From the NCBI GenBank assembly GCA_016490735.1, contig JAEMWC010000133.1, positions 1 through 64,000 of the forward strand: a DNA stretch of 64,000 nucleotides, in the 5' to 3' direction. The DNA is from Pachyseris speciosa (lineage: Eukaryota > Cnidaria > Anthozoa > Scleractinia > Pachyseridae). Position numbers and translations under genes: made by a program. The notes beneath the pieces were generated by a model, which was given only the letters and a program-made list of their open reading frames with translations, was not told where the DNA came from and ran no database searches. Position 1 is the first letter of the stretch. Each line of letters starts with the position of its first letter. Shown here piece after piece: positions 1 through 50,395 of this stretch.

Positions 1-3000
1 ACTCTGCCCGTCGAGAAGTTGGATTAAGCATAGCTGATTTTATATTACTAAACTTACATTCCAGAGACAAATCGATTCCGACTTGTGTAGTGATGCTTTC
101 GTACTTTCTGTTTTGAACTGTACAGTTAAATTTCACAGTGTGACTCGATATTTTCCAAGATGAACGCTTAACAGTTAAGGTTCCATTGGAGATTCCCAAC
201 ACTCTTATCCCATGTGCTTTTAGTGACTCCGGTAACTTCTTTACCACTGCACATCGTAGATTCTTGTCGCAGAAAGCGACATTATTATAGAACCCAGAGT
301 CCCTCACTTTCCACACGAGCTCGCTGATTTGTTTGGCCTTATTCAGTGCTCCACAACTCATGGTAAAAACCTCATTAGGGCACTCCTTTCGATCCTGTTG
401 CGTGGTACGAGATCCTAAGAAAATCAAGTGTTTGCATTAGAGACTTCCAAGACTTTTCCCTGATGCCTTGGTATCAAAAAAGTACCTGCATGAAACGCCT
501 TCCTTCTGTTCTGTGGAGAGCAATCTCGTCTTAACCGTTTAGGTTGCACCCCGTTGACTAGAGGGAGCAGGAGATATACATAAAGCACGACAAGGGAAGG
601 GTGGAGGGGCGGAGGGGGGGGGGAGTCGGGGTGGTTGCGGGAGAGACTGACACGTAGAAAGCCGAAAAATTGGAAAGTTCTGCATCATTTCGTAATGGCT
701 TTCCAAGGAAAGTAAAAAAAATTCAGATCATGGCATGTCTTACTCCCCCTCCACAAACTACTTCTACGAACCCACGAGCAATCAAGTATTCGTTTTTGTC
801 CGACGCCTATTATCGTCCGCCTGTTATCAAACGATGATGGAGCTGAGCCAAAATTTGCGAAACAAATTGGCTCAAAATGGTTTCGTTATTTTTAAACACT
901 AACTCTTTGATGGATCGATACTCCCACAATTTTTCGTTTCTTTCCCTGAACGTGGTATCGAAAAATTTCCCAATTATTTCTCAACAAGCTGTGATCAATT
1001 TTTTGCCATATAAGGTTACCATAGCAACAGTACAGCCTCTTAGAAACATCCTTAATTTGGCTTTATGTGCCTGTAACTCAAAACGAGTCAAATGACCCCC
1101 TTTTTATATGATCGAATTGCAATCAGCATGTGAAGATTCATCTTTTTGCAAAGTTTTAAAAAAGTCGGTACATAAGGTTCGGAGTCACCTTAATTTTCGA
1201 TAATTTAAAGTTGGTCTGAACCCCATGTACAGATTTTTTTAAAACTTTACAGAAAGATGAGTCTGATTGCAATTCAATAATAATAAAAAAACGTCGGACA
1301 TCCGACTCGCTTTTGAGTTACAGGCACAAAAAGACCAAAATTAAGGGTGTTTCTAAAAGGCTGTACTGTTGCTATGGTAACCTTATACAGCAAGAAATGA
1401 TCACAACGCGTTGAGAAATAATTGGGAAATCTTTTGATACCGTGTTCAAGAAAACAAACTAAAACTTGTGGAGTATCGATCCATCAAAGAGTTGGTGTTT
1501 AAAGATAACGAAACCATTTTGAGCCACCTTAATTGACGCCGGTTACTCATACCAGCCCTAAAAGGAAATTTATTGGACTTTGGACAGCTTACGAGGTCGA
1601 GGTAGTCAAATTTCAATTATAGAAAAAAACAAACAAAGACTCGATATTTATCAGAAGCGTGGAAGTTATACTGAGGAAAAAGGAAAAAGCTCGGCTGTTG
1701 CCTGAAGGGAAGTATCGCCCTTGTATTATCTTGCCGGATGTTCTAGGGAATTTCCTAAACTCCAACTTCCCGTTACACTTAATTTGCAGCGTACACAAAA
1801 CACCAGTGCTAATCGTTTAACGCCCGTTTTTTCAATTGATATGACAACGAGTACGACACTGAGCAAATATTGAGATATCAATCACGAGAAAAGAGACAAA
1901 CTCGCTTATTCTCCTGTTAACCATAACGATGCAATTGTCGCTCGCGCGTGGTACACAATGTACTGAATTCGTTCAATATTCTTTATTTCCGACATTAGTC
2001 GTCTGCTCCTAGATAAAACATGTTGCGTAGGGAATTATAAAGATGGTTTAAAAACATTTAGTAGCCAGACAAGGTAATCTTACATGCATCAGTAAACAAA
2101 CAAGCAATGACTGACACGGTTGAGATCCGGTTGAAATCATTTCAACCGGATATATCTCAACCGTGCCAATACTTTGAAACTGCATGCATGCTTAATAACA
2201 CTATACTGCAGCAACCCTTATCAGTGCCAAAGGGCCGAAACCAATTCAAATTGTTTAGTTTAAAATGGTTGAGTAACCTCTTCGAAGAACAATTTAACAT
2301 TTTACGTAATAGGCTTATCATAACAAAGACATTACAAGTATAAACCTAGCTCCCTTCAAAAACACGGTTAATGTTTTTTTTTTTAAACTCAGGAGTGTGA
2401 TTTAATTGATCAGTCAAGAATCGCAAATGATCCGAAAATATTATTTCCTCCTTACGCGCCACCCACATATACCATTTCACTTTCCGGACGGTAACGTAAC
2501 TCGAAATCTTCTATTTCTGCCGAGAGGGTTTTACCCTTTCCCGGTATCGAAACTGAAACTGACTTTTTTGGTCTCAAGAAATAAGACGACGCTATACTTG
2601 ACAAAAAATCAGAGGAAACCGAGCAGAAAATAAAAATAGGCCAATGCATGGAACAATAGTTTTTGAAGTGTACTTCCAAGTGAAGTACCTTACTTCGTTG
2701 TTCAACTTACAAACTTGTGTTGGTGAACTTATCCAAGATTTTGGAGACTGACATCGCACCGCATTACTGCAGGTCACGTAACTTTGTAAGCTTAAAGATT
2801 ACAAGCGGTTTGCACCAGGGTGCAACTGTTTAACAAACAAAGAACCAATTCAAAAAGCTAAAAGAGTCTTATTTATTTAATGGTGGCAAAACGGAGGCTG
2901 AAACTGAAAAATAAACAAAGAAAGCTTTCGAAACTATTATATTTGTACTTTAAAAAATGATTTTAGCGAATCATTTATTTCTGTTTAAAAAAGTGATGTT

Positions 3001-3211
3001 CTCGGAAGACAAAACAGAGCCGGATGGGAAGGGATTTCGGTTATGATTCAAGCAACTTTTCTAGGTAAACAAGGGGTTTGCTTTGAAGTTAGTGTACTGA
3101 GAAAACAATAGGCATTGCATATAGACATGAAAATACTATAATCAAGTGTGCTTTCAACAACTTACCGCAGACAAGGAACATCAGAGTCAAGTGAAAGATG
3201 GTTCTCACCAT
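1..3211 (-). CDS. Secreted or membrane immunoglobulin-like domain protein, 5' part only
   Basis: Two exons can be read. Exon 1 (3211-3166) starts with ATG and encodes a short hydrophobic signal peptide (MVRTIFHLTLMFLVC). It ends in a GTAAG donor after one base of a codon. Exon 2 (414 down to base 1) follows a pyrimidine-rich TTTTCTTAG acceptor, supplies the other two bases of a Gly codon and stays open to the window edge. The exon 2 protein looks like an Ig V-type fold: Cys in a TMSC strand, Trp about 15 residues later (LVWKV), an NGTLTV strand and a second Cys in FNCTV about 64 residues after the Trp. Further Cys residues suggest extra disulfides. The 2.75-kb intron holds a large inverted repeat. 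The role is unknown. Cnidarian Ig receptors, including allorecognition-type ones, are one possibility, but nothing here proves that. The rest of the gene lies left of the window. Confidence 0.6.
869..1525. repeat. Long inverted repeat, foldback or MITE-like
   Basis: The left arm (869 to about 1170) reappears as reverse complement at about 1225-1525. Both arms share the blocks GGCTCAAAATGGTTTCG, GGATCGATACTCC and GGTTACCATAGCAACAGTAC, with scattered mismatches and small indels, around a spacer of about 55 bp. It lies inside the intron of the minus-strand Ig gene and would fold into a long hairpin in that pre-mRNA. I saw no clear target duplication, so it may be older than most elements here. 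Confidence 0.75.
2115..2165. repeat. Short near-perfect palindrome
   Basis: CACGGTTGAGATCCGGTTGA is followed, after a very short loop, by its near-perfect complement ending in CTCAACCGTG, giving a stem of about 23 bp. It lies in the intron of the Ig gene. No function is evident. Confidence 0.7.
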
Positions 3212-3856
3212 GTTCGGCTATTTTTTGTTTTCCGCAAAATCCAATACACATACGGTGCAATGAGGCAGTGTGCTGAAAGAAAACAGTGAAACTGCCTTAT
3301 TTGTAATCAAGTTTTTCGGTAATCACTTTTAATCCCTCTTTCTATTAATTGAATTATCTCAGTTACACATTATCATGATTGTATCTTCCTGTTTTGCTAC
3401 CGTTAGTACAGTTGTTAACAAGACATAATTCCTCCTTTAACGAGGGCTTGATGCGACGTTAACGTTTTTTGAATGAAAATTTACATAATTAAAAGCAACT
3501 TCACTTAACATTGTTTGAGCATCTACTGGCAGCCGGCTAACGGCAAGTATGGCACTGGTAAGTAAACGGTTATTAAAACATATGACTTTCGCTGGTCTTA
3601 CAGGAGCGCGTTGAATTGTGGATAAGTTTAAATGAGCAAAATGCCTAACCATTTGCTGAGGTACTGATTAAGCATTGACAATGCTACCAAAAGAGTTTAA
3701 CTACGGCATAAAAAGCAAATCCGGATTCCCAAATTAACGCTAAAATCGTTGTTTGAATATGAGTTCCAGCTTTTCTGTGCCAGTTTAATTTGGTCAAGAG
3801 ATATTTCCTCTAAAGAAAGAGAAACCCTCTACAACCGTGTTCATATTTGCCGGCAA

Positions 3857-4190
3857 GGGTCTTTCAATAATTGAGGAGAAAGTGCTGCCTTTGTAATGTC
3901 ATCTACAAACGGTTAGACTTTCTAGGCTTCTAGGATAAAGACCATAAACCGTAGATCCCGTAGGACTTTCACTTAATCTGACTCCGTTGGACGTAAAAGA
4001 ACCTCTAGGGACGTAACAAAACTCTGGCTGTGACCAGCCCTAGCTAGTGTCTGTCCTAATTCGATATTCACGTTAAAGGGGTACGTATTTTACTTACTTC
4101 ATTAATTGTCAACTGCTCAAGCAGTCTGATAAAAGTTCCCCTGTCAGTGTTGTATAAACCGCCATGAGAAATAAATACATTACCATAACC
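3857..4190 (+). repeat. SINE-like repeat, body and tail
   Basis: Bases 3857-3960 match, with mismatches, the body of the minus-strand tRNA-headed SINE at 34826-35010: the blocks AATTGAGGAGAAAGTGCT and ATCTACAAACGGTTAGACTT are shared. Bases 4035-4190 match 13997-14160 (TAGTGTCTGTC, then TTCATTAATTGT, then CAGTGTTGTA). These three loci appear to be different pieces of one dispersed family. Confidence 0.6.
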
Positions 4191-5563
4191 AATAAGTTAC
4201 TCGGGTAAAGAGGCCTAAGGCAGGATAAATAAACCTTTAAGCATTGATTTTACCTGACCAAGGTGTACTGCATGCAATGTCCCTTGTGCAGTTGCAAACT
4301 AACTCCTGATTCCTAAGCAGCTTTTAGTTGGCTTTATAGTCACTGCTTGGTCACGTACTATCACGTGACAACAATTAAACGTTACCGCCTCAATATATGG
4401 TGTAACGATGCTATTTATATAAACGTCTTTGGTTCAGCTAGCTCAATCAGTATAAGCTGTGGTTTAAAGCAAGATATCGTTACAGATATAAACAATATCG
4501 TGAAATCGAAACTATTCATTTCCTTTTGTGCATGAATGACTCTTACTTGTAGTTGATCGGGGCGCTTTTAGCGTTGGGGAAATTTACTGATTTTCGGTTT
4601 TACCATTCATTTACCGAAAACAGCACTGGTTAAAATAATTCGATCAGAAAATTCTGTTCAGAAGAGCGCTTTTTATTCAGTTGTTTATTCTGAAGTGAAC
4701 CTCCTCCTCCTCCCGCTATTTTTGACTAACCTGCAATGTGGGGCCCTTGAAAGTCTAAGATCAACACTAGTAAAATATGGGACGTTGTCGATTTTGGCTC
4801 ACGAATGAATTTACATAAGGGACATCTTCGGGAAAACAAAGCGTGTTGTTCAGAGGTAAATTTTCCGGTGGAATACCCTGAAAGAGCGTATAACGTTTCC
4901 GTTAATACGCTATGAGGGTTTGTCTAAGTTGCAGCCGATATTTCCGGACGATTTTAAGGAAACGTTACACAACTTTTATTACCCCGGCAGGAAAGAGTTA
5001 ATGACGGAAAAGAATACTTTCGCTTATGCCATACTTGTTTGCTCAGCGTGCTAAAAATATTTACCTTGTGTTGCACCCCAAACCTTAATTGCACTGATGC
5101 ACTCTGCTATAAACATCCGCGTTGCGCATTCCATGCGCGTCGCTAGAAAAATATAAAATGAAATATACTGACTTCTTCCAAAATGGCCTTTTATGTAATA
5201 ATGGAGTCTCACTATCTGTAAATTATTTAAGTATGGTGACACAACTGTACATGAAAGAGTGCTCTGGCAGCCTTCACGGTGGAATTTTTACAGAATAATA
5301 AAGAGACGAGAGTTTCGATTATAGGAAGAAAGCTCACACACCCTTAAAGTATTCTCTTGATTCCCAGCATCATTCTATGATATGCAAGTTTTATGCAGTA
5401 CAATTTAAGCTACCACGGCTTCATTTTCAAAAACTCAAAAGACCCGGAAGTATACACTCTGTTGGCTACCAGTAAGTGATGTTTCCGAAATTTAACCAGA
5501 ACCTCAAATACCGCAGTTTACCGTAAGCTAAAAAGCGTGTATGTTACCGATTCGAGTTCCAGC

Positions 5564-6117
5564 CGGATTGAATTTCGTTGTGCCTTTTTCAAATGATGTG
5601 ACGTTAAGGTATATGATCATTCAGCGGGAAGGCGAACGATTTTAGTTTATTATAATCTACTTTCGTTGTATGAATGAACGAAAGAATTTGAAAGCGGCAC
5701 GCTTTCTCACGTTACTCGATACAAGCAGGAAGGAAATCATAGAAAAGTTTGGCGAAACTCAAGAATTAGCCAATTTATAAACTTCCTTGATTGGCAGAAT
5801 GATTACATCATGTTACTAGTTCAAAATAGTACAGACAGTACGCCCATTTTCTTTTCCTTCAAAACACCAAGTAGTGAATTCGACGGATTGAATTTCGTTG
5901 TGCCTTCTTCAAATGATGTGACGTTAAGGTATGTGATAATTCAGCGGGAAGGCGAACGATTTTAGTTTATTATGATCTACTATCGTTGTATGAATGAACG
6001 AAAAGAATTAGCCAATTTATAAACTTCCTTGAATGATTGCATCATGTTACTAGTTCAAAATAGTACAGACAGTGCGCTCATTTTCTTTTCCTTCAAAACA
6101 CCAAGGAGTGAATTCGA
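5564..6117 (+). repeat. Tandem duplication of about 320 bp, second copy internally deleted
   Basis: The unit beginning CGGATTGAATTTCGTTGTGC at 5564 begins again at 5884. Copy 1 (320 bp) and copy 2 (234 bp) share their starts, middles (GCGGGAAGGCGAACGATTTT) and ends (ACACCAAG, then GTGAATTCGA). Copy 2 lacks an internal stretch of about 85 bp and has a few substitutions. Confidence 0.8.
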
Positions 6118-8052
6118 CAAGTTATATATCGAGTCAGCAGAGCTCAAGTGTTAGCTAGTTATGTCAACTAAAAGTTTCTCAAAGTAAATTTATGTACTGA
6201 TAAAATTCAAAAGCGCGAACGTGCTTCATGACAGTCTCATTGCGCAAACTGTTGGCGTCAAACTAGCACGTTGAAATGCTGTAAAGCAATTGGTTCATGC
6301 CTAAACTGTGCGTTCATTGAGATATGAAGTACTTGGAAAGTTTAGAGAACATCCAAGAAGCTAGAGTTGCTCGAGGCGTACTCGAGGCTACGCCTCGAGC
6401 AACTCCTTCGCATCTTTCGTGCCGTCCAACCTTCCCTCGTGCTTCAGTCATATCTAGATGAACGCACGCTGACGCATGAACCATGCAATTCTTAATTTGC
6501 GTCTGAAAATTTTCTGTGATGATTCTTTGCATCTGACATCTTTAAAAGGTTATGAGATAATTTTATCCTGTTTCGATTTCCCGCACCCTTGAAACTGAAA
6601 GGGGTAACCGTTTAAATCTGCTTATATACTGAAGCTTAGCTGACTCATTTCGTTTTACGCATTGTGAGTTGTCATCCTTTTCATTTTATTTCAGAAGACA
6701 ATGATAAAGTGATTTTGCGTTCAAAGAAATGTGTAATTAGCTGCACCCTCTACACGTGTATATCTGTACCATATAGAGAGGGTATTCAAAAGATTAAATT
6801 TCTTGAAAAGCGGAAAATAAATTTAGTATCCTGACAACTAGAGTCAGCGTATCTTTTGTTTAGTCTAAGCGAGCAAGTCAAAGATTTTTCTCGTTCATGC
6901 AAATTTAATGAAGTTTCCTTTCAGTGGGGGTTAACTTGACTGTCAATCTTAATATAGAAACTTCACACGGGAATCTTGTTGTGTGCCACGTTTTACTGTG
7001 CATGGCTGCAGTGAAGTGCCCAGGGACTGGGGAAATTATTCGTTATATTGTTCATTAGGTCCTTTTCCATACATTTTAAAAGGACGAGCTGAAGAATATC
7101 GTTCGTTATATCGAGGACTTCATGATATAGAGGTTCGTTAAATCGAGGCTTACTTGTGATTGTTCTCGTCATTTAGCGTTACAACGAGGATTGCATCGTT
7201 GTGACGAACTTCTTTCTCGCCCAAGCGAGTCTCTTTTGAGCTTCCCGTTTTGCCGTGTTGTGGTTCTCTGATTTCGTATTCTCACTCACGGTTCATCGTC
7301 GAGTCACACAAGATTAATAGGAAAAGGCTATGGCTACCACCAAACTGGTGAACGCCCATCGTCACCGACAACTTTGTGATGCTTTGTACTTGCAGCGTGC
7401 ACTCGATTTCAGACAAAGGTCAACATAAGTTCAGTTGTTCATCTTTCATCTTCATTTTAGACTATGCCGGCCTAAAGGCAGCTGAGGGAATACAATATTT
7501 CCAACTAATAATTCATACCTCTCTACGTTCATTGAAAGCCGCAAGAATGTCTCCTTGTGTGCGTGAATGAACAATACGTTAACTCGTCAGTCACTTGAAT
7601 GCACACCGTTAGGACATTCCTCGTGTCAAGCCTTTTGAAATTTGAGGCGCAAAAACGTTTAGAAAAAGGTTTCCGTCTAGCTCTGAAAACGAATTGACAA
7701 GAATATGGTCAAAATCAGGAAAAAAAAAAACGAATTCAATAATGTAACTGGCTACTAGAAAAATAAACTGAAAAATATCTTTATGCACACTGAGTTAGTA
7801 TATACTTCTTCCAAGGTGAACACTGGAAGGTTGTATTATAGTGGCTTCGTTTTGTTTGCAAAACGGCTCCTACATGGCGTGACGACTCGGCTGGGACAAA
7901 ACTAAAATATGCATGCTACTTCAAGTTTATTTGCATTTGTTTTTGCCAGTATACTTTACATCACTGGCATTTACATATGTCAACCTTACAGTGGTAAGCG
8001 GAACCCGAATGTATTAGCATTGATCGCACTAGAAACAGTGCAGAGCATGGTG

Positions 8053-11400: not shown

Positions 11401-13653
11401 CTTAAAGTAAGATGGAGATTTTTGAGCATGTGAATGGTCATCGCAGTTATGAACACTACTTAAGCAGTAGTGAAAATAAAGCCTGAAAAAATAAACATTC
11501 AAATATATGATCGATGTTCATATTTTATTATATTCATTATCACATATTCATCACTCACGGGTATATTACGAACCAACAAAACGACCAGCTAACAGTTGGC
11601 TTGTTAGCTCAGTTGGTAGAGCACTGCAGCTGTATCGCAGAGGTCATGGGTTTAAACCCCGTACAAGCCTGGCTTTATTTTCACTACTGCTTAAGTAGTG
11701 TTCATAACTTGGCTTGTTAGCTCAGTTGGTAGAGCACTGCAGCTGTATCGCAGAGGTCATGGGTTTAAACCCCGTACAAGCCTGGCTTCATTTTCACTAC
11801 TGCTTAAGTAGTGTTCATAACTGCGATGATCATTCGCATATACTCATTCTTTAATCCTCAGTTTCAAATATATGATCTTCATATATTCATTCTCACATGG
11901 AGAGTTTTGGCAATATCCGTTTTTTTTTTTTACTTTGTGACGCACGTCTTTCATACTACTAAGATCAGTCATCCAGGATAGTGTCCTGTGCAGGGACAAA
12001 AAAACAACCAAAAAAACACAAATGATATGAGAATGCCAAGTAAACCGTTTTTCACTTTTTAAAGACTGGAGAGGAAAAGCTAGTCTAACCTTGAGTTTAT
12101 AGTTGGCCTTAATTTCTAAATTTTTGTTTCTATTATCATGTACCATTTTTCAACTCAAGGTAACAGAGGCAATTCACATCCCTTAGGGAAAGCTCTAGAT
12201 CTCCCTCAAATGAAGCTATCACTGTGAAAACATTTTTTCCACATTCATCCTTATTATAACTATTCTCTACAGTAGGGATACTTCATATAAATCATCTAAT
12301 TAGTTCCTTATAATTAGCACTGACGGAAGAAGGCAGACTTTTCAACATGCATGTAAAGTTGTTTTAATTTTCATGATTAATTTTGTCTTTGCATCCCGCG
12401 AGACTGAGAACATAACCCTATATTAACCTTCATCTTTCCTGGAACTTCGTTTTGAAAAACAGAATTGTAAACTGATGGCCATTTCCAGGCCATTTTCTTT
12501 ATTGTCTGGCCATCCTGATAGAGTTCTGATAGGCTCTGTCGTTTCAAATTTCGCGCTTGTCATGCATGAAAGTCCCGGATGATGTCGCCTCATTCTGGGC
12601 GATGCCTTACAGAGTGTCCCGTTAACACTGTTTGACACCCTCAGCTCATACAATAGTATGTATATGATGTGTTACAGGGAGGAAGGCCACCTTATGTTTA
12701 CGTTTTTGATCATTGTGCTGCCCATACCAACTTTCCAGAGACGACTGGTGCAGTTCATTACATGGATATTCCTTTTGTGTTTGGAGCACCTTTTAAGGAC
12801 ATTCCCGATCCGATCACCAACAACGTGGTAAAAGGATATTCTGAAACAGAAAAGGGCTTTAGTTTCTACGTTATGAAACTGTGGACAGACTTTGCAAAAT
12901 ATGGGTAAGAAGCTTTCATAAAATTAAATTTAATCTAAAGCAGTCAAGGAAGACCTCCAACTCACTTGGATAAGATGGCGCCCTAAGGCTAATGGCTTAG
13001 GCCGAGAGAAGGGGATGAAGGTATCGTTATTATCTCGCGTGTGGCAGTAATTATGAAGGTCATGCATCGCCACTGCCTTCATTATTATCGGCATCATTGT
13101 CACTGTCACTATCACGAACACTAACGCGGATACTCACACCAACACTAACACCTATTCCCACACCAAGATTACCGGCGTTACGACCTCTGGGAGGAAGGGA
13201 GGGAGGGAGGGAAGGAGAAGTGGAGCTCGTCTTAGGGTGTGTCACCATTCCGGGGGTACCCCAGAAAAATTGGGTCGGGGTTTGTGGCCCGCTTCCTCAA
13301 ACCCTATCCTAGTCACTAAGGGACTAGAATGTTACTGATGCTGCCAGTAAGCTGGCATGGTACAATGTTAGTAATACAGGTTTTCTTTTATTATCCCCAG
13401 TTCTCCAAATCCTCCACCGGAATCTGGCCCTGCACCAGTTACGTGGCCTGCATTTACTAAAAAAAACCAGGAATATCTTGTCATCGGCTTGAAACCTAAA
13501 GTAGAGCGTAGATACAAAGCAAAAAGGATGGCGTTTTGGAACGAAATTGTGCCTAAAGTTCACGAGTTCACGAAAGAGATAACTACTAAAAAAATTGATG
13601 ACATGCAAACTGAAGAGGTGACTGAAAGGGAGGTACAAAAGGAGGAGTTGTGA
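8429..13653 (+). CDS. ER-luminal carboxylesterase-like protein, copy A, catalytic Ser replaced by Asp
   Basis: Five exons: 8429-8747, 9602-9855, 10524-11234, 12678-12904 and 13401-13653. All junctions are GT-AG with phases 1, 0, 0 and 2, giving 587 residues. A signal peptide (about residues 1-26) precedes a full alpha/beta-hydrolase of the carboxylesterase type B family. Visible marks are EYLGIPYAEPPVGELRF, the CPQ...SEDCLFLN cysteine pair, the oxyanion region HGGRFFFG, acid Glu346 (TSDEG) and His455 (GAVHYMD). The nucleophile motif, normally GxSxG, reads GQDAGA with Asp at residue 218, so ordinary serine hydrolysis is not expected. The C-terminus is KEEL, a KDEL-like retention signal, placing the protein in the ER lumen as in mammalian carboxylesterases. 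Introns hold tRNA-derived repeats. It may be a catalytically dead binding or chaperone-like paralogue, or it may be decaying. Confidence 0.88.
8880..9307 (-). repeat. Two partial copies of a tRNA-derived SINE, intron 1 of copy A
   Basis: Both units read GAATGAATATATGAAAATCAT, an ATCATCGCAGTTATGA block and then a reverse-strand tRNA-like body. The tRNA-like parts are about 9022-9091 and 9240-9307, with a B-box complement (GTCGAACCCACGACCTCTGC) and A-box complement (ACTGAGCTAACAAG). The second is shortened. They belong to the same family as the copies at 11598-11822. Confidence 0.75.
11598..11822 (+). repeat. Tandem pair of tRNA(Thr)-like SINE units, intron 3 of copy A
   Basis: Two nearly identical units with a 113-bp period carry 72-nt tRNA-like bodies at 11598-11669 and 11711-11782. 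Each has a perfect 7-bp acceptor stem (GGCTTGT with ACAAGCC), a perfect D stem (GCTC/GAGC) and a paired T stem (ATGGG/CCCGT). The anticodon stem has one mismatch, and loop positions 34-36 read TGT, which would be Thr. Position 33 is C, and the T loop is TTTAAAC rather than TTC-type, so this is more likely tRNA-derived repeat than working tRNA. Flanking blocks ACTACTTAAGCAGTAGTG and CACTACTGCTTAAGTAGTG are inverted around the pair. Confidence 0.75.
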
Positions 13654-18900: not shown

Positions 18901-21900
18901 CATACAGCACTATAATTGCTAAGAACATCCTTACTTTTTGGACAGTCATTTGAAAACAAACATTGGATGAATAAAATACGGTCTATGTCGATAACACAAC
19001 AACATGATATCTATTCTTTCAGAGCGAACAAGTGAGGATTGTCTATTTCTGAACGTGTTTGTACCATCAACCGCGGTGACAGCCGACGACAAGATGGCGG
19101 TTATGGTGTGGATTCACGGTGGCAGATTTGCTTTTGGTACGTCCAGTCGCTACCCCGGTGGTGTCTTGGCGGCCTTCAATGACGTAATTATCGTGTCGAT
19201 CAACTATCGTCTCGGGATACTTGGTTTCTTTAACGTTCCCGGAACTGAAGTTAAAGGGAATTATGGTATTTTGGATCAGGTATGACTGATGCCAAGCTAC
19301 ATTTCGCGTGAAGTTCATTGCGGTCGATAATTTGCAGTATTGAAATATACAGAAATGCATCCGCGGTTATGACACGCGATATCAGGCGGAATAGTCTGAT
19401 CGTGACTAAAACACCACACGAGTACTACGAGTTACACACGAGTAACATCCAAGTACATACGAGTGACGTACGGGTACATACAGATACATACGGGTAACAT
19501 ACAAGTAACATACAAATACATACGAGTAACACACAGGTAACATACGGTCAAATGTGGGTCATACGCATGAAATCTACAAAGTAAAATACAAGAAATTGTT
19601 ATGGGGATAGGGGTAAGGGCTTGATGGGATTCTCAGTTGTCCCTGAGTCAAGAAATTGGATCTTTCTCCGAAATCTTTGATTTGTTTTATTATTGCTCGG
19701 TGTATTTATTGATGCAAGGGTATAGTGTGGGGAGAAAGTAGCATTTGAGGGTGTGAGTATTTGCGTGTGTGGTGGGAGTGGGGTAGGATGGGGGGTGGGG
19801 GTGGGGGTGATGCGATCGGTTTGTTCTGAGAAAACGTGTTTGCATTTACAAATTTCTATTTTTCGTACTAGCTTCAGTCCTCTTAGCCTCCAACGCACTC
19901 GTTTTTAGGGGACTGCGTGGGAGGCTACAGTCCTCTTGGCTTTTGGCCGAGCGTAATCTATCCAGTCAGCGAGCCTAACAATCCGGAAATTTTAGGCAAA
20001 TGGTAAATAATACGTACCGTTCCTAACCGAAATTTCAGGATTTTTTTTTATAAATGGTAAACAACCTTGCAGATACCACAGTGGAAGCTGTATCACCCTC
20101 CCTCCCCCACCCTTCCCATCACACACCCTCAAATGCTAATTTCTCCTTACACTACACCCCTGAATTAATAAATACACCAAGCTGTATCACCCTCCCCCCC
20201 ACCCCTCCATCACACACCCTCAAATGCTAATTTCTGCCCACACTACACCCCTGAATTAATAAATACACCAAGCTGTATCACCCTCCCTCCCCCACCCCTC
20301 CCATCACACACCCTCAAATGCTAATTTATGCCCACACTACACACTTGAATTAATAAACACACCAAGCTGTATCACCCTCCCCCCACCCCTCCCATCACAC
20401 ACCCTCAAATGCTAATTTCTGCCCACACTACACCCTTGAATTAATAAATACACCAAGCTTTATCACCCTCCCCCCCACCCCTCCCATCACACATCCTCAA
20501 ATGCTAATTTCTGCCCACACTACACCCCTGAATTAATAAATACACCAAGCGGTATCACCCTTCCCCCCCCCCCACCCCTCCCATCACACACCCTCAAATG
20601 CTAATTTCTGCCCACACTACACCCTTGAATTAATAAATACACCAAGCTGTATCACCCTCCCTTCCCCACCCCTCCCATCACACACCCTCAAATGCTAATT
20701 TCTGCCCACACTACACCCTTGAATTAATAAATACACCAAGCTGTATCACCCTCCCCCCCACCCCTCCCATCACACATCCTCAAATGCTAATTTCTGCCCA
20801 CACTACACCCCTGAATTAATAAATACACCAAGCTGTATCACCCACCCCCCCCACCCCTCCCATCACACACCCTCAAATGCTAATTTCTGCCCACACTACA
20901 CCCCTGAATTAATAAATACACCAAGCTGTATCACCCACACCCCCCCCCACCCCTCCCATCACACACCCTCAAATGCTAATTTCTGCCCACACTACACCCT
21001 TGAATTAATAAATACACCAAGCTGTATCACCCTCCCCCCCCACCCCTCCCATCACACACCCTTAAATGCTAATTTCTGCCCACACTACACCCTGAATTAA
21101 TAAATACACCAAGCTGTATCACCCACCCCCCCACCCCTCCCATCACACACCCTCAAATGCTAATTTCTGCCCACACTACACCCTTGAATTAATAAACACA
21201 CCAAGCTGTATAAACACAAATCAAAGATTTCGGACAAAAATCCAATTTCTTGTATTTTACTTTGTAGATTTCATGCGTTTTACCCACATTTGACCGTATA
21301 TATGTTACCCGTGTGTTACTCGTATGTATTTGTATGTTATTTGTATGTTACTCGTATGTATCTGTATGTACCCGTATGTCACTCGTATGTACTGGTATGT
21401 TACTCGTGTGTTACCCGTAGTACTCGTGTGGTGTTTTAGTCACGATCGGAATAGTCTTGCTTTTTTGTGTGGCTCTAGTTGTGATCGAAATCTAAACATT
21501 TCTTTTTTAATGTCATTTTCTCCAGATACTCGCATTAAAGTGGGTTCAAGCCAACATTGCCAGTTTCGGCGGCGATACCAACACAGTTACCATATTTGGG
21601 CAGAGCGCAGGAGGAATGAGTGTTTCTATTCATTTGATCTCGCCATTGTCCAAAGGTTTGTTTCAAAGAGCTATTATGCAAAGTGGAGCATCCTCAACGC
21701 CACTTTACAGCGGAAAAGTTGCCAGCACGAGGCAGTTAGAGTTATTTGCCAGTGACATCAATTGTACCGTAGGGCCTAATCTTGTCCAGTGCGTCAGAGG
21801 CAAGACTGTTGAAGAGATTCTCACCGTCCAGTGGACGTTTATGCTCGAAAACTACACCGCTGGTTCGACACAAGACATAGTAGGACCCGTTGTTGATGGA

Positions 21901-24898
21901 GTGCTGCTATCAGATCTGCCAGAAAACCTGTTCAAAACAGGAAAATTTCAGGCTGAAGTGGACGTCATGGCTGGCTTTACTTCCCATGAAGGAGCTATTT
22001 TTGCTTTTTTTTGGCCACCTGATCGATTTAAGGACGGTTTGGAACAAAATGTGTTTGATAGTATTGTCAGGGAGCAAATGCTGTACGCTAGGAAAACGAA
22101 TACGGTTGTTGAAGACTTGGTTTTATTTGAATACACAAACCATTCCAATCCCGGCGATAAAAACATCACTCGTCGGTCGATACTGGACGTTTTCGGTGAC
22201 GCCGCTTTCGTTGCGCCCGTTCTGCTTGAGACGAAAGCGCTGGCAAAGGTGAATTCTCAAGTAAAACCTTTTACATAGTAAGAAAACTAGATTAAGAAGG
22301 TATGGGAATTCATACCAAAAAAACGCAAGCCGCCAACTAGAGCTTGACTAGCCCATCACCCTCCCATGACCGGCACCGATTGCATGCTCCGTGATGACCG
22401 ATTGCATGCTCCGTGATGACTTCTAGCAAGGTAGATCGAATATATGTTATTCTCTATTGTACTTCATGTTCTATCGATTCGTTGTTAACACGCCAATTCA
22501 TCTCCCTCAACCTTGGTCTGAATGAGCTTGGGGTGCGGGCAGGGAGTAGCCCTGGGATGCTTCATCGTCTTGCCCAGGGGGTGGGCACACTCTTAATGCT
22601 ACAAAGGGAATGAATGAGGGGTTGCTACTGGAAACCGGGATGTATAGACTACTTAGGCTCGTCCTGCCTCGTCCGTTTGATTTTGATCATTTTCGTCAGT
22701 TGATTAAGTGTCCCGCGATGGAAAGTACCGTCAGAGGCATCTGGTTTGATGGTGTATTTGGTTCACCAAGTTTGTGAGCCTGCAAAGACCAAATCTTTGT
22801 CCGATCCTGCCATTACTTATTCAGAGATTTTCATAGTGGTTCCCTTTTTCCCTGAGCAAAAACTGTAGCTTATTATACGGTATACCCCTCCTCCAATAAG
22901 GAGATTCAAGCTTACGTCATTGTTTACATTTTTGCTCATTTGCATACGGCGTTGCTTACAGAAGGAAACATGTTAGATGTGATTTAACTCCAGGCAGCTA
23001 AAGAGGTAGTGAAATTTAATATATTGTGAAATTTTTAGCTCTTTAGGTGTAGTATTCATGGGAGATAATAGGGCTGTTTATACGAAAGAAAATAATCCGA
23101 GGCTTACTCTGGCCGCGGCTTACATAAGACGCGAAAGGAACCATTTATACGAGTAAAAACTCCTAGGCCAGGATAAGCCGCAGCTTGAGAAAGCCGTGAA
23201 CGTAGATTTTGTACCATTTATACGGAGTGCTCGCGTCTTATGTAAGCCGTGGCCAGAGTAAGCCGCGGCTTATTTTCTCTCGTATAAACGGCCCTATTGT
23301 CTTCCAAAAACTGCAAAATGTCTGGGTAGCAAAAGCACTAATGAGCTCTTACATTCTTTGCAAAATTTTGAGATTTTAAACCCGCGTTGCACAAAAAGTA
23401 TTCAATACAAGAGGCTCATATTCATTGGCAGAGTTATTCATACTATGAGCTTTCAATATTCAGAACTTATTTATTTGTAGCTCCATCAGAAACTGAATTG
23501 CTCGTGCTAATGACGCAAATATTGTAAACAAGGATTCCCCTATTGCAAACCACATTCTCATTTACCTGTTTGATCATTTGTTTGTTTGTTTGTTGTATTT
23601 TACAGGGAGGACGACCGCCTTACGTCTACCTGTTTAACCACCGTGCAATGTTTTCTCCTATGCCTGAGTGGGTTGGCGTGATTCATTGCATGGAAATTCC
23701 TTTTTTGTTTGGGGCACCATTCCGGAACGCAACTGACCCAATTACCAACATCTTGGCAACCAAATATTCGGAAACAGAAAAAGGCTTTAGTTTGTACGTT
23801 ATGAAACTGTGGACAGATTTCGCCAAATATGGGTAAGAGCTAATTCAACATCAGCATCATCATTGTCCCCATTTACTTTTACAAACTAGTGATATCAGTG
23901 TCATAGATTATCGATTCACATTAAAGGGGCTTTGTCATTGTGAATTTTATGTCTTCGAGGTCAAAATAAAAACCATTACTTATAACCAAAATGCCCCTAG
24001 AACATCTATGATTTGCACAGCACAGGAGAACGCCCAATTATTTCAAGTTGCAATCCATTTCAATCCTTGCCACCCTCAGCCAAAGACGCTTACTTATTGT
24101 TGTGCTAAACTGGCACAACAATTTTAAACAAAACTGAACTATTAGTTTCAGTTTTCTTTGCCTGCAATATAATTTTCAGCTTTTTAAAGTACATTAAAAA
24201 TTCATGACATAGCTCCTCGAGTTGATTTTCCCTCTCCAAAGATCGAACGAATCCGCTGTTTCAAAAATGTGCAAGAAGTTCATACTTCGAGACTTCAATC
24301 ACACGTGCAATATACCATTTTGCTAATGATCAGTTCCTGGTGAATTGTGGGTAGATCTAGTCCTTTGTGGGGGCAAACGGTCAAAATTACAATTTCAAAT
24401 TACGTCCTAAGATGGCCGTTTGCCCCCACAAAGGACTGGATCTACCCACAATTCACCAGGAACTGATCATCAGCAAAATGGTGTATACGCCGAACACATA
24501 ATGTATTGAATAAATTTAGAATGTAAATACTCTTCTCATGATTATTCCATGCATCGTCGGAATCAATCGCACGGTTCGTGCATACTCTTTAAATAGATGC
24601 ATAGGTAATGCGATTAAGTGTCCTGCGCGGCCTTAACACCATCAAGTTCAGCTGGATACCTTTCTTTTCCCCTTTAAGATCTCCAAATACGCAGGAGTCT
24701 CGTTCTGTACCTGTCATGTGGCCTAAATTCACCGAACAAGAGCAGGAATATCTTGTCCTCGACTTGAACCCGAGGGTGGAACGCAGATACAAGGCGAAAA
24801 AGATGGCGTTTTGGAATGAAATTGTTCCTGGAGTGCTGGAGTTAAACACAAAGAAAACAATGAAAACTGAAAAAAAGACATCAAACGACGAGCTGTAA
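15966..24898 (+). CDS. ER-luminal carboxylesterase-like enzyme, copy B, intact catalytic triad
   Basis: Five exons: 15966-16305, 19023-19279, 21526-22248, 23606-23832 and 24679-24898, GT-AG with phases 1, 0, 0 and 2, giving 588 residues. I chose the ATG at 15966 (GCCATGA) because it gives a compact signal peptide; an in-frame ATG at 15918 would lengthen the N-terminus. Family marks: EYLGIPYAEPPVGELRF, a CPQ...SEDCLFLN cysteine pair, nucleophile Ser226 in GQSAGG, Glu354 in TSHEG and His467 in GVIHCME. The oxyanion loop reads HGGR, so its third Gly is Arg. The C-terminus NDEL is a KDEL-like retention signal. Expected role is hydrolysis of esters or amides in the ER lumen; the substrate cannot be told. 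Of the three copies this is the only one reading as a complete Ser-Glu-His enzyme. Introns carry a hAT-like MITE, a satellite-bearing TIR element and two palindromic MITEs. Confidence 0.9.
18031..18468. mobile_element. Non-autonomous TIR element, intron 1 of copy B
   Basis: The left end CAGGGGCACCCAACGA is the exact complement of the right end TCGTTGGGTGCCCCTG. The flanks repeat AGACTT (18025-18030 and 18469-18474), possibly 7 bp if the boundary is moved one base. The CAGGGG ends suggest a hAT- or P-like family. Open frames across it are not coding-like. Confidence 0.8.
19398..21447. mobile_element. 2.05-kb TIR element carrying a satellite array, intron 2 of copy B
   Basis: The ends GATCGTGACTAAAAC and GTTTTAGTCACGATC are exact inverted repeats, flanked by a perfect 10-bp direct repeat GGAATAGTCT (19388-19397 and 21448-21457). 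The inverted arms continue inward: a roughly 10-bp-period stretch based on ACATACGAGTA (about 19420-19560, complemented at about 21297-21430), then CAAAGTAAAATACAAGAAATT and its complement. Even a degenerate satellite unit lies reversed at about 19690-19800. Between the arms sit a TAGCCTCC MITE (19884-19926) and the satellite array. There is no transposase. A 10-bp duplication fits a MULE-like mobiliser, by inference. Confidence 0.85.
20087..21215 (+). repeat. Satellite array, about 12 units of about 93 bp
   Basis: Each unit begins AAGCTGTATCACCC, passes through a C-rich tract of varying length, then CATCACACACCCTCAAATGC, TAATTTCTGCCCACACTACA and GAATTAATAAATACACC. Variation is mostly in the C tract and in a CCCCTG/CCCTTG site that recurs between units, suggesting homogenisation by unequal exchange. 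The strand is strongly C-rich over more than 1 kb. Confidence 0.95.
23071..23294. mobile_element. Palindromic MITE with TA target duplication, intron 3 of copy B
   Basis: GGGCTGTTTATACGA opens and TCGTATAAACGGCCC closes the element. Inner blocks (ACTCTGGCCGCGGCTTACAT and its complement) make it a nearly complete hairpin. TA flanks both sides. A Tc1/mariner-like origin is possible. Confidence 0.75.
24311..24487. mobile_element. Near-perfect palindromic MITE, intron 4 of copy B
   Basis: The left arm (about 69 bp, including GATCAGTTCCTGGTGAATTG and CCTTTGTGGGGGCAAACGG) is repeated as complement in the right arm with about three mismatches, around a spacer of about 35 bp. It would form a stable hairpin in the copy B pre-mRNA close to the last exon. 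Confidence 0.85.
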
Positions 24899-38316: not shown

Positions 38317-39849
38317 TCAGTCGGCCTTAGCGGACGGAGGGTCGTCAGAGGGGACCAATAATACTAGTGAACCGATGGGCCGCTCGTATGTCCTTCTCTG
38401 TCCATCTCTGCAAACCAACACTGACGCCTTCCTCACTCTTCCATCTCCACTCCTTTTCGCTTGTACCACCCTGCCCAATGGCCAGTTGTTCCTGTGGGCT
38501 TCGTCGTCCTTCATCAAGACAACGTCTCCGACACTTAGGTTTCGGCATTCTTGGTTCCACTTTGTCCTTACTTGCAAGTTCTGGAGGTACTCTCGTCTCC
38601 ACCTCGTCCAGAACTGTTCGGCTAGATATTGGACTCTTCTCCATCTCCGTCGGGCGTAGGCATCCTGTGCGATGAACTTGCCTGGGAGAGGACCTAATGG
38701 GCGAGTCTTCTGTGTCAGCAGCATGGATGGTGTTAAGGGTAGTGGCTCGTCAACATCGGACGGAATGGCCGTGATAGGGCGGGAGTTTACTATGGCAGTA
38801 ACCTCAGACATGAAGGTAACGAGCAGCTCGTGGGTCAATCGCTGCGTTCCTACCTCTAGCAGCATGGCATTGAGGATGCGCCGGATTGTGCCTATTTGTC
38901 GCTCCCAAACACCACCGAAATGGGACGCATGAGGTGGGTTGAACTGCCATTTACATCCTTGCTTGGATAGGTATCTCTCCACTGACTCCTTATCCATTTC
39001 TGCCAAGGCTTTGTCCAGCTCGGTCTTCGCACCCACAAAATTGCTACCTCGGTCACACCTTAGAAGGAGAGCAGGTCCTCGCAGGGAAAGGAAGCGCCTC
39101 AGAGCACAAATAAATGAACTGGCATCCATTGTCTCCAGGAGCTCGATGTGGATTGCTCTACTGGTCAGACACGTGAAAACAAGTCCCCAGCGTTTTGAGT
39201 CGGCAACTCCTCCTCTGGTTTTCCTTGTTTGTACTGACCATGGTCCGAATACGTCGAACCCTACGTTGGTGAAGGGGGGCCCAACTTCTGCCCTGTCAGG
39301 GGGTAGATCTGCCATTTTCTGATCCAGTAGGGGACCTCGTAGCTTCTTGCACGTAACGCAAGAACGAATCAGGCCTGAAACGGCCGCGTGACCGCCTACG
39401 AGCCAGTATCCGGCATTTCGCAGTGCTCCATGGGTGATCTGACGACCCTGATGGTGTACTTCTTCATGGTAATGTTGCAATATCAGCTTTGATACGTGGT
39501 GCCGTTTAGGTAAGACCAGTGGGTGCTTCTCATCCGAACTCAGGTTGGTCTGGCGAAGGCGGCCGCCTACTCTCAGTAGTCCGGCATCGTCAACGTAGGG
39601 GTCTAGCCGGTAGAGACTTAACTTTTTCAAAGACTTCTTTCTCGCTTTGGCACCGCTGCGGCCGTCATTGTTTTCCGGGATACTTCGCGACATCACGCCA
39701 AACTCTTTCTCAAAGGCTTCATTCTGGACTGCCTTGATGATAATCGTGGTTGCTTGAGCAATTATTTCGGATGATCGGTGACTGTGATGCTGTGATGGGT
39801 TGTTCTCTGTTTTTCTTTTCTTTAACGACTTCGCCTTTGCTATAAGCAC
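38317..39849 (-). CDS. BEL/Pao integrase region
   Basis: 510 codons on the minus strand, read -1 relative to the upstream gag-pol frame. The order is that of BEL integrase: an H...H/C-x2-C zinc domain (HHVSKLILQHYHEEVHH, then CVTCKKLRG); a DDE core with FDVFGPWSV (first Asp), LLRCDRGSNFVGA (second Asp) and NPPHASHFGGVWERQIGTIR (Glu); and a C-terminal DUF-type tail with VGDVVLMKDDEAHRNNWPLG and a basic region. The same frame is open upstream of 39849, where ERFKRFSSWSSLRQTIA continues the usual BEL junction, so the true product is fused to gag-pol. It would insert the cDNA into host DNA. Confidence 0.9.
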   Translation of the reverse strand: MLIAKAKSLKKRKTENNPSQHHSHRSSEIIAQATTIIIKAVQNEAFEKEFGVMSRSIPENNDGRSGAKARKKSLKKLSLYRLDPYVDDAGLLRVGGRLRQTNLSSDEKHPLVLPKRHHVSKLILQHYHEEVHHQGRQITHGALRNAGYWLVGGHAAVSGLIRSCVTCKKLRGPLLDQKMADLPPDRAEVGPPFTNVGFDVFGPWSVQTRKTRGGVADSKRWGLVFTCLTSRAIHIELLETMDASSFICALRRFLSLRGPALLLRCDRGSNFVGAKTELDKALAEMDKESVERYLSKQGCKWQFNPPHASHFGGVWERQIGTIRRILNAMLLEVGTQRLTHELLVTFMSEVTAIVNSRPITAIPSDVDEPLPLTPSMLLTQKTRPLGPLPGKFIAQDAYARRRWRRVQYLAEQFWTRWRREYLQNLQVRTKWNQECRNLSVGDVVLMKDDEAHRNNWPLGRVVQAKRSGDGRVRKASVLVCRDGQRRTYERPIGSLVLLVPSDDPPSAKAD

Positions 39850-39863
39850 AGCAATGGTCTGTC

Positions 39864-42800
39864 TCAGAGAAGACCAAGATGAAAATCTCTTAAATCTCTC
39901 CGTTCCGAGAGTGGGGACTCCGACAGCATGACACTTGTTGCGCGAGATTTCAGCTCTTTTCGTACTTCCGGGTCGTCTTTAATTAGCTTTGCTTGTTCTT
40001 CGCCACGTGTAGTAGCGTCTTTGGCATTTCGCAGGAACTCGGGACCGTTTATCCAGTCGGACTCCATGAGGCGTTTTGGCTGTAAGCCACGTGTACCCAG
40101 ATCGGCGGGATTGTTGGCACTCTCAACGTACCTCCACTGGTCGGGGGTCGATATCTTGCGAATAATCTGGACGCGATTCGCTACATAGATATGGAATCTC
40201 CTGCTCTCGTTACAGATGTAGCCGAGGACAACCTTAGAGTCGGTGTAGAACACTGCCTTCGATATCGGAATATGTAATTCCTTCGTGACTTTGTCTGCTG
40301 CCTGAACTGCCAGCACGGCTCCACAGAGTTCAAGTCGTGGGATACTGGTGGGGTTGGTTGGCGCGACTTTGGCCTGGCCAAATACAAGGGATACAGCCAT
40401 ATCGCCGGCGCTGTTAAACAGACGGAGGTAAACGGCTGCTCCAATTGCTTTCTGGCTTGCGTCTGAAAATACGTGCAGTTCGGCCCTTATGGAAGGGCCG
40501 AACTCTCTCGGATGATAGCACCGCTGTATGGAGACTTTCTGGAGGTCTGAGAGCCCGTTCTTCCAGCATTGCCATTCACTTGCTAGTCCCTCTGGAAGTG
40601 GGTCGTCCCATCCTAGGGGTTCAGCTGTTGTTGTCCTCTTGCCCATTGCCACTAGCTGTTGGAGCAAGAGCCTCCCCTCCAGAAGGACTGGTGCGGCTAG
40701 TCCGAGGGGGTCGTAAATCGAGTTCACCAGTGCTAGGACTCCACGTCGTGTGAACGGTCTATCGGGCACTGACACCTTGTAGGTGAACGTATCTGACTCC
40801 AAATCCCAAAATACACCGAGGGAGCGCTGAGCTGGCAACTCGTCGTGGCGCAGATCCAAGCTGCGGATGTCACTCGCAAGATCTTCTGTCGGGAAGGCTT
40901 CCATTACGGTCACGGAGTTTGACACCACTTTATGCAGTCTCAGGTTTGCAGTGGCGAGAGCTGCTTGTGTGTCTGACACTAGTTTGATGATCTCGTCTGC
41001 GGTCGGTCGGGAAACCAAACCGTCGTCGACGTAAAAGTTCCTTTGCACGAAATCCTTCACTCCATGATCGAACTCCTCGCCGTCTTCTACTGTTCTTCTC
41101 AGACCATAGGTAGCCACTGCGGGGCTTGGTCCGTTCCCGAACAGGTGGACTGTCATCCTATGCTCCACGATGGGTTTTGAAGGGTCGTTGTCTTTAAACC
41201 ACAAGAAGCGCAGGAAGTCTCGATGCCTTGGTGCCACGTGAAATGAATGGAACATTTGCTCCACGTCGCACATTGCGGCTACATCTTCGCGGCGGAAGCG
41301 CATAAGAACGCCAACTAAACTGTTCGTGAAATCTGGGCCTGTCAGCAGCTCTCGGTTGAGGGAGTGGCCTTGATACTCAGCCGAAGAGTCGAATACCACT
41401 CGAATTTGGCCTGGCTTCTTCGGGTGGTATACTCCAAAATGAGGAAGGTACCATACTTGACCGGAATCTACACAGGGCGAGATTTCTTTATTGGGAACTG
41501 GGACTGCGTGCCCTTTCTCCAGGATCTTTGCCATAAAGTCAACGTAGTCTTTCTCCATCTGTGGTTTGCGTTTTAGAGTACGCAGTAGGCTATTCAGACG
41601 TTTGATTGCATAGCTCTTGTTGTTTGGCATCGATACACTACGTGAGCGGAACGGTAGGGGCATTTCCCAATTTCCGAGTTCGTTCTTGCGGATGCCTTTC
41701 TCCATGATCTCAATAAATCTCCGATCTTCGATTGACAGGCCTGTGTCGTTGTCGTTCCGTGTGACATGGTAGATGTCTTCTGCTGGTCTGTTGTCTTCAC
41801 TGGGCTCTTTGTAGCTTTCTCGGAAGTCGAATGTATTTGGACATCTCACGATCTCGTACTCTGTCTCGGTGCCCTTTCCCGTATGAACTGTATGGACTTG
41901 CCGATTACAGAAGGTTAGGTTGCTACCAAAGGGTATGTCCGCGCTTTCGTTAGTCGTAACACAGGTTCGCTTGGCTTGTACATGGATAGCCCCGTTTGTG
42001 AAGTCTAAGCAGGTCTGGCCAGAGATGGTCCACCCCAACACTAACTTCTGAGCCCATGGTGCTCCTTTTGGGCCATTCTTGAATGCCCTTACTTTTAGGA
42101 GTTCTGGTGCGTCTCTGCCGATTAACAGCTGGACTTTCGCCTCCTTATCGAGAGGGGGTAGCTCTTCGGCAATGCTCGCAAGGTGGGGATACTGCATTGC
42201 GATCTCCGGGGTCGGTATCTCTTCTTTGTCTTGTGGAATGTTGTCGCACTCTATGAGGGTGGGTAATTTCGACGTTCTGCCATGGATGGATCTAATGATC
42301 AGTCCTGTTACTCTCCGGCCGTACTTGACCTCGCTGTCGCTTCCGCAGGTCGAAAGGTAGTACTTCCAGTCAGGACCTTGGGCATTTAGCTTGTCTGCTA
42401 ACTCTGTGCTAATTATTGAGGCGTTACTTTGATCGTCTACGATAGCGTAAATGCGATGGACGTCGTCGGGACGGTCTTCGTTGTAGACATCCACGAGCAC
42501 AATCTTGCTACAGGAGAGTCCGCCCGGATTGCCGTTACATATCCAGGTACATTTGGAATTAATCTTTTCCTCGCTCTTAGTAGGCGTCTCTGTCTCTTTG
42601 GCACTCTCCGTCTTATCTTGGCTATTTAAGTGGAGAATGTCTGGGTGTCGCCCGCTGCCACAGATGCTGCACCTTATTTTCTCTTTGCATTCACTGGCGA
42701 TGTGGTTTGGCGAGAAACAGCGGAAACATAGGCGTTCTTCAAGGACCCACTGTTGTCTTTCTGCGACTGTCATCTTGCCGAAGGCCTTACACTCTTTAGT

Positions 42801-44723: not shown

Positions 44724-44832
44724 GCTGGATGATTTCCGCTCGGGCGACGGTAATAAAAACTGCTAATGTACGGCTTACCTCCAAGTTTACTCCGACGGTT
44801 TCTTGACTGTGTTGAACGTCAGTTTTTCCCAC

Positions 44833-46168: not shown

Positions 46169-47085
46169 ACAGAATACAGGGCCAAATTTGAGGATAAGTG
46201 CTTGGCAGTGGCTCAACGGCTCGGCAGTGACTTGAGCACATGAAGAACGTGGTAAATATACTAGAGATTGGCTCGGTGGCTCGACGGCTCGGCACTCAGT
46301 TATTAAGTGCTTTAAGAACGAGGTAGATATACTACAGAGGGGCTCGACGGCTCGGCAGTTGCTTTAGTGCTTTAAGAACGAGGTAGATATATTAGAGAGT
46401 GGCTCGGTGGCTCGACGGCTCGGCAGTCGCTTTAGTGCTTTAAGAACGAGGTAGATATATTAGAGAGTGGCTCGGTGGCTCGACAGCTCGACGGCTCGGC
46501 AGTCGCTTTGGTGCTTTAAGAACGAGGTAGATATATTAGAGAGTGGCTCGGTGGCTCGACGGCTCGGCAGTCGCTTTGGTGCTTTAAGAACGAGGTAGAT
46601 ATATTAGAGGGTGGCTCGGTGGCTCGACGGCTCGGCAGTCGCCTTAGTGCTTTAAGAACGAGGTAGATATATTAGAAAGTGGCTCAGTGGCTCGACGGCT
46701 CGGCAGTCGCTTTAGTGCTTTAAGAACGAGGTAGATATATTAGAGAGTGGCTCGGTGGCTCGACGGCTCGGCAGTCGCTTTAGTGCTTTAAGAACGAGGT
46801 AGATATATCAGAGAGTAGCTCGGTGGCTCGACGGCTCGGCAGTCGCTTTAGTGCTTTACGAACGAGGTAGATATATTAGAGAGTGGCTCGGTGGCTCGAC
46901 GGCTCGGCAGTCGCTTTAGTGCTTTAAGAACGAGGTAGATATACTGGAGAGTGGCTTTATGGCTCGCCAGCTCGGCAGTCACTGGCGAGCCGCCGAGTCA
47001 TTCAAGTTGACTGGCGAGCCGTTTGACTGGCGAGCCACCGAGCCGGTTGAAAATAAAACCCTACAAAATTGGCCCTGTATTCTGT
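46169..47085. mobile_element. Satellite-bearing inverted-repeat element, intron 1 of copy C
   Basis: ACAGAATACAGGGCCAAATTT at the left end is complemented by AAAATTGGCCCTGTATTCTGT at the right. Just inside the right end lie reversed copies of the GGCTCGCCAGT-type motif, which complement the array. I found no clear target duplication. The layout repeats that of 19398-21447, but the sequence is unrelated. Confidence 0.7.
46203..46975 (+). repeat. Minisatellite, about 11 units of about 68 bp
   Basis: Units read GTGGCTCGGTGGCTCGACGG, CTCGGCAGTCGCTTTAGTGC, TTTAAGAACGAGGTAGATAT and ATTAGAGA. Lengths are 66-76 bp because the GGCTCGACGGCTCG part varies in repeat number. The first unit is the most divergent. 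Confidence 0.93.
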
Positions 47086-50009: not shown

Positions 50010-50395
50010 AGACCAAGATGCCTATCCAGGTGCATATAGCGGCGCGGCGTGTGTTCGAAAGCTGTCAATTCTGTTGCGTGGTTGACATGTTCCATATCGA
50101 TTTTTTTTTCAGGCTTCTTTTCGCTATTGCATAAATTACGTTCACAACTGCGAGGATTATTCTTCATTTGATGACTAATACCCCGTTCACACCAACAAAA
50201 CATGTCCAATTAAACAAAGTTTAATGAAACCATGTTTAGTTAAACATGGTTAAATGATTAACCCGTTTACACCGAACAACAAGAGCTGACAACAACGTAG
50301 CCTCATGTTCATGCTCAGCCTCGCGTTCGTGTAATTGAAATTGACGTAAAATGTTACAACATCAAAACAGCCACAACACGTAAAATGTAAACAAA

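Follow-up and report, generated by a model that had tools for sequence, protein, structure and literature searches.

A satellite array carried by a foldback-like DNA transposon of the stony coral Pachyseris speciosa and its probable origin from one transposon arm

To characterize a satellite array found in Pachyseris speciosa, we analyzed the first 64,000 nucleotides of contig JAEMWC010000133.1 (the window) and compared them with the rest of the genome. A carboxylesterase-like gene occupies positions 19026..22278 of the plus strand, as judged from the sequence by eye, from paralogous exons and from the Pfam family PF00135; its outer exon limits are approximate, and the array-bearing element lies in one of its introns. 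Splice-like junctions were recognized by eye on both sides of the element, GATCAG/GTATGA near 19280 and TCTCCAG/ATACTC near 21526. The host exon matches PF00135 with an E value of 6e-52. Its closest database proteins are unnamed, and the named matches come from Desmophyllum pertusum (74% over half of the exon), Montipora capricornis (56% over 58%) and the sea anemone Actinostola (41%).

The window holds several other features. A second tandem array (46208-46980, about 9-11 copies of a 68-bp unit) is located at the end of an open reading frame (ORF) that by eye resembles the start of another carboxylesterase. Two direct copies of 113 bp, 99% identical and each with a tRNA-Thr(TGT)-like gene, are found at 11596-11822. 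The ORF at 50384-51247 carries a DDE_Tnp_4 endonuclease domain and is presumably Harbinger-like, and a Myb/SANT-like ORF (55620-56168) is placed on the opposite strand. Two long overlapping ORFs of the minus strand (38317-44762) have the look of a gag-pol retroelement, which we take to be of the BEL/Pao kind from the appearance of the ORFs.

The element itself is a non-coding sequence of 2,050 bp at 19398-21447. It is flanked on the plus strand by GGAATAGTCT at 19388..19397 and by its copy at 21448..21457, identical in 10/10 positions, and these are the only two occurrences of this 10-mer in the window, counted on the plus strand. The outer left terminal inverted repeat (TIR) (19398..19598, plus strand), delimited by the arm alignment and by the tips found across the genome, begins with the tip GATCGTGACTAAAACACCACACGAG and contains subterminal 10-11 bp repeats of the ACGAGTAACATAC type. 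The outer right TIR (21243..21447, minus strand) is identical to it in 191 of 205 aligned positions (93%), with no mismatch between the two in the first 32 bp. The inversion reaches inward past the outer TIRs and across one satellite unit (19649-19755 against 21146-21252, 87%). On the left, the inner arm segment L2 (19599..19694, plus strand) has an inverted counterpart in the right arm only for about 19649-19690, which is the inner right arm segment at 21211..21252 on the minus strand. It is followed by a single reversed satellite unit (19695..19755, minus strand) with four diagnostic differences from the array consensus, and by a middle segment M (19756..20084, plus strand) that 18 of the 20 long genomic regions described below contain completely or partially (it is absent from L021 and L025). 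The tandem array occupies 20085..21211 of the plus strand, within the right arm; repeat and unit mapping gave a period of 92 bp, 12.1 copies and a start-to-start spacing of 91-97. The first-pass annotation had described a perfect 10-bp duplication, long TIRs around an array of about twelve 93-bp units and a reversed unit in the left arm, and all of this agrees with our analysis, with a unit length correct to within one base. By sequence structure the element is foldback-like, with long inverted arms that carry subrepeats, each made of a 205-bp TIR and one inverted satellite unit.

The genome search covered 983,672,442 bases in 2,368 contigs (about 984 Mb). Both haplotypes seem to be present in places in this assembly, so the copy counts may be inflated. 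The 23-base tip has 219 matches with at most one mismatch (111 forward and 108 reverse), against 0 for the reversed tip used as a control, and positions were listed for 100 of the 219. Loci were selected from the search matches and not at random: 20 regions of 9-10 kb, 24 shorter regions and 8 further loci. The query for the 20 long regions was the whole element, and such a search is biased towards arm-bearing loci.

We examined 29 inward tip pairs, allowing up to four errors per tip. Flanking duplications of 9-10 bp, with one mismatch or none, are present in 21 of them. As a control, mispaired flanks gave such a match in 9 of 812 cases, and all nine of these control positives are, by hand inspection, loci that share one site. 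Perfect duplications were found at 10 bp in eleven pairs and at 9 bp in two, and a hand count assigns the 21 pairs to 16 distinct sites. This test applied to recognizable tips in the expected order, and loci such as L017, L019, L021, L022, L028 and the composites fell outside it. Eight pairs showed no duplication (L027, L034, L035, L040, L042, L045, L048 and L050). Four of these seem to occupy the same site as a copy with a duplication: for L040 and L042 it is the site of L041, with two mismatches, and L048 and L050 agree with L033 in the right flank. The remaining four (L027, L034, L035 and L045) have neither a duplication nor a site shared with such a copy. No empty site was found in the window: within it, the joined flanks match only themselves and exons of paralogous genes, with no intron match. 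The expectation of many loci that combine TIRs, an array and such duplications is borne out by loci with tips, arms, an array or a unit and duplications of 9-10 bp. They also refute the explanation that no insertion took place, in which a local inverted duplication would have made the arms and the two 10-mers would match by chance: with 219 tips across the genome, duplications at 16 distinct sites and no observation in its favour, we leave this explanation practically no probability.

Mutator elements generate target duplications of about 8-11 bp, mostly 9-10 bp, and 9-10 bp is the length observed in 21 of the 29 tip pairs. Because of the duplication length and the arm structure, which are also the characters of Tetris as far as the available text on that element goes (PMC4079207), the present element is probably a non-autonomous, foldback-like, cut-and-paste DNA transposon of the Mutator type. 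Other types were rejected. Tc1/mariner elements, the type of the Xenopus element miDNA4, duplicate a TA target, and the duplications found here are 9-10 bp long and varied in sequence. A CMITE or piggyBac type does not agree with the tip GATCGTGACTAAAACACC and the 9-10 bp duplications. Helitrons and Helentrons, which may carry repeats, have neither TIRs nor target duplications, and long TIRs and duplications are both present here.

No transposase was seen in the two longest inward tip pairs (3.6 and 4.4 kb) among the 100 of 219 tips with listed positions. The long tip pairs L035 and L036 were considered as autonomous copies and rejected, since they hold reverse-transcriptase genes and are therefore read as nested retroelements. 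In a further copy, a 4.4-kb insert inside the array (L023, about 2126-6560) has its own inverted ends, TACCCCTCACGGAA, recognized by eye, and is a nested DNA transposon; none of its seven scanned ORFs exceeded the Pfam cut-off, and one weak bZIP match (E 8e-5) fell below it.

The plan of the window element (T-L2-reversed unit-M-array-L2'-T') was recognized, by our own reading and with some parts truncated, in 10 of the 20 long regions (L009, L010, L016, L017, L018, L020, L022, L023, L024 and L026), and the other 10 are without one or more of its parts. L027 has no reversed unit, and neither has the first element of each composite (L011, L012 and L014). L019, L021 and L028 keep only one arm, as do the composites' second elements together with L013 and L015, which overlap them. 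Unit counts had been predicted to vary, and the right arm indeed holds 1, 3, 4, 7, 9, 10, 11, 12 or 14 units in some copies and 20, 24, 26, 36, 39, 43, 51 or 67 in others (the counts of L011a, L019 and L023 differ by one or two between scripts). Short forms of 382-442 bp (L029, L030 and L037-L039) have one unit in all, and the relatives L031, L032 and L033 have one unit in each arm. In the one-unit copy L033 another part of the left arm forms four tandem repeats with a spacing of 115-120 bp (297-723), which indicates that other arm segments can amplify too. The composites contain two elements about 560 bp apart and occur in three genome copies (L012, 1870-9972; L011, 3122-9722; L014, 2252-10000) with left flanks 98.6-98.7% identical; it is possible that the pair forms a larger mobile or duplicated unit.

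With regard to long arrays free of arms, as in a classical satellite, we found arrays of 1-67 units and, among the 20 regions, a single small array without TIRs. This array (L025, 4408-5447) has about 10 units and a scrap of the left arm. It is possibly a freed satellite; our own reading is that it is a decayed copy of the element, because a piece of the left arm is retained. Arrays without TIRs had been named beforehand as the observation that would speak against satellite and arms moving as one unit. One region of the 20 is of this kind as to its TIRs and still carries an arm piece, and several further arrays retain one arm only. Apart from these limits, the first-pass interpretation is supported on its main points.

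To explore the origin of the array, we compared the reversed unit with the array consensus and found four differing sites, 23, 29, 47 and 63. At these sites most copies have C, C, C, G in the reversed unit, the exceptions being L022 (C, C, T, G) and L031 (C, C, A, G). The array reads A, G, A, A, and its site 29 varies (240 G of 303 units). Among the eleven single units, six show A, G, A, A (L031, L033, L037, L039, L040 and L042), one shows A, A, A, A (L032) and four show A, C, A, G (L029, L030, L043 and L045). L029 and L030 have no middle segment, and for this reason their units cannot be assigned to an arm. L043, a divergent copy with units in both arms, reads T, C, C, G and A, C, C, G on the left and A, C, A, G on the right, and L045 clusters with it in both trees. 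Thus, the array state of sites 29 and 63 is limited to the array family's right-arm lineage; left arms and the divergent right arm of L043 have the non-array state in common. Since the right-arm unit of L043 is intermediate between the reversed unit and the array, the founder is taken to be the right-arm unit. The simplest reading of these sequences, which uses two sites and one copy whose arm is known from its own anatomy, would be that the unit was once present in both arms and that the array was founded by the right-arm unit after further change. The suggestion that the array had grown from the element itself is therefore favoured.

The same data bear on the possibility that units of a pre-existing satellite were captured, once in each orientation, and are now only carried. 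Capture has been proposed for miDNA4 in Xenopus, according to the accessible part of a review (PMC12628747), and the TIR-free array of L025 would agree with it. However, the unit is placed at the same position inside both inverted arms, the diagnostic sites of L043 place its right unit between the reversed unit and the array, L025 itself retains a left-arm piece, and one or both outer arms are present in 19 of the 20 regions, although the whole-element query favours such loci. We consider capture very unlikely; most likely the array came from the right-arm unit, was moved as an array and is still changing in length.

A further comparison concerns the timing of amplification. In ten elements the distance of the reversed unit to its own array (12.0%) equals that to other arrays (12.0%), which indicates that amplification preceded the spread of the family. 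Homogenization of arrays across the genome, initially suggested by divergences of 4.9% for array units against 8-11% for arms, was rejected: in the same columns, divergence between elements is 5.2% for array units against 7.0% for the reversed unit, larger for the latter in 32 of 44 pairs, and the idea was dropped because the bootstrap interval includes zero.

For 14 arrays treated as independent (303 units; both arrays of L012 were counted, the second of them cut by the end of the locus), no fixed substitution relative to the common consensus was found, with a mean of 1.9 substitutions per unit. This absence of fixed private changes in spite of 1.9 substitutions per unit suggests that the arrays were probably already arrays at or soon after insertion. 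It likewise argues against an independent origin of each array, after insertion, from a one-unit copy: amplification from separate single units would be expected to fix private substitutions, the eleven single units lie 0 to 9 substitutions from the consensus, and 49 element-by-variant cases, with the variant in at least two units in both elements, recur among the 14 arrays. An independent origin has points in its favour. In the tree, one-unit copies are interspersed with many-unit ones, and its star-like shape leaves ancestral and contracted one-unit copies indistinguishable; 25 variants present in at least two units of an array are private to one element. Moreover, 14 bases from the end of the unit are found a second time in front of it in five one-unit copies (L031, L032, L040, L041 and L042); this direct repeat could be a start for tandem growth by slippage or exchange, or the scar of a contracted array. 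The long branch of L019 in the right-arm tree set is an artefact, since its right arm is missing. On balance we regard independent origins as unlikely and favour arrays that moved as arrays.

Changes of array length after insertion are indicated by apparent copies of one insertion that differ in units and by variants that have spread locally. The window locus (12 units) and its copy on C1626 (11 units) have the same duplication and flanks 99.3% identical over 3,006 bases and 99.9% over 2,986; we take them as two haplotypes, and a recent duplication is possible. Arrays of 9, 36 and 67 units on C924, C1754 and C288 apparently occupy one site, with flanks of 98.1% and 93.0% identity for L019 and L024, and of 95.2% over 602 and 95.9% over 146 bases for L018 and L024; the C1754 copy has lost its right arm. 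Likewise, two places on C279 and one on C1271 have left flanks of 98.6-98.7% identity and 24, 51 and 39 units. Two variants occur in 18 and 17 units of the 51-unit copy; neither is found in at least two units of the 39-unit sister, and the 24-unit sister has only one of them, in 3 units. Carriers of a variant are closer to each other than in shuffled arrays in 4 of 9 arrays (L017, L019, L012a and L016; p 0.04 or less) and not closer in the other 5. Assembly error possibly contributes to the differences in array length.

Taken as a whole, it is very probable that the family is a foldback-like transposon whose right-arm unit was amplified, moved as an array and has undergone length turnover since. 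The ancestral arms would have had one unit of about 92 bp each, as one-unit relatives still do. The diagnostic sites suggest that the right-arm unit of one lineage gained substitutions and was then amplified in tandem. Array-bearing elements would have been copied to many sites, the movement being indicated by the duplications and the transposase presumably acting in trans, and after insertion units are added and lost, probably through unequal exchange or slippage during replication. By analogy with Galileo, the outer 10-11 bp subrepeats are probably transposase binding sites. A more tentative extension is that transposition itself enlarges the array, with units added when the hairpin-prone, one-armed array is repaired at excision or insertion; we think this rather improbable, and if it were so the element would be a mobile satellite generator that delivers ready-made arrays of tens of units to new sites in a stony coral genome, introns included.

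Several known elements resemble this family, and we compared them from those parts of the literature that were available. Tetris, a foldback element of Drosophila virilis placed in Mutator by its authors, has 8-10 bp duplications, is likewise non-autonomous with long inverted arms and internal tandem repeats, and its repeats also occur in longer satellite-like arrays (PMC4079207). By description it differs in repeats of about 220 bp within the TIRs, whereas here units of 92 bp are amplified in one arm with a single reversed unit in the other, and the host belongs to another phylum. Tm1, a Mutator/Foldback family of root-knot nematodes with mostly 9-bp (8-10) duplications, shares composite arms, short subrepeats of variable number and MITE-like as well as longer forms (PMC3169594). 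It has copies with a MULE-domain transposase, of which none was seen in the element loci examined here, and its subrepeats are of 13-15 bp, with no 92-bp array mentioned in the text at hand (PMC3169594). The monomer of miDNA4, a Xenopus MITE of the Tc1/mariner type, occurs singly or in arrays of variable copy number inside the MITE, and short direct repeats have been proposed to drive its growth (Scalvenzi and Pollet, as excerpted in the review PMC12628747); in the present family, by contrast, the unit belongs to the inverted arms, and duplications are 9-10 bp long. Galileo, a foldback-like P element of Drosophila, has TIR tandem repeats that vary independently at the two ends, as a likeness, but in the sections available shows 7-bp bounding sequences and 2-3 repeats of about 210 bp (PMC3573991). 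In corals, CMITE elements are non-coding and in some cases arranged in tandem arrays, but are described there as about 100 bp long and piggyBac-related, with TTAA duplications and CCCTTT-type tips (PMC2872659).

Our search of the literature on foldback elements, MITEs and satellite-bearing elements found no description of this family, which is no proof of absence; the only coral MITE met in it was the TTAA-type CMITE, and the available part of a coral karyotype paper (PMC9005458) has nothing on a 92-bp repeat. The formation of satellites from foldback elements and MITEs is already in print, and the general picture is unchanged. The present family is a well-resolved case, in which the founder unit of a satellite is probably traceable to one transposon arm, array and element move together, and unit number varies several-fold among what appear to be copies of a single insertion. 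A traceable founder together with a travelling, varying array makes the order of founder change, amplification, dispersal and turnover testable. As for the proposal that such elements seed satellites across a genome, the extent observed is that of dispersed arrays with up to 67 units, which fall short of megabase satellites. The family is clearly a new example of a known route by which mobile DNA can spread satellites.
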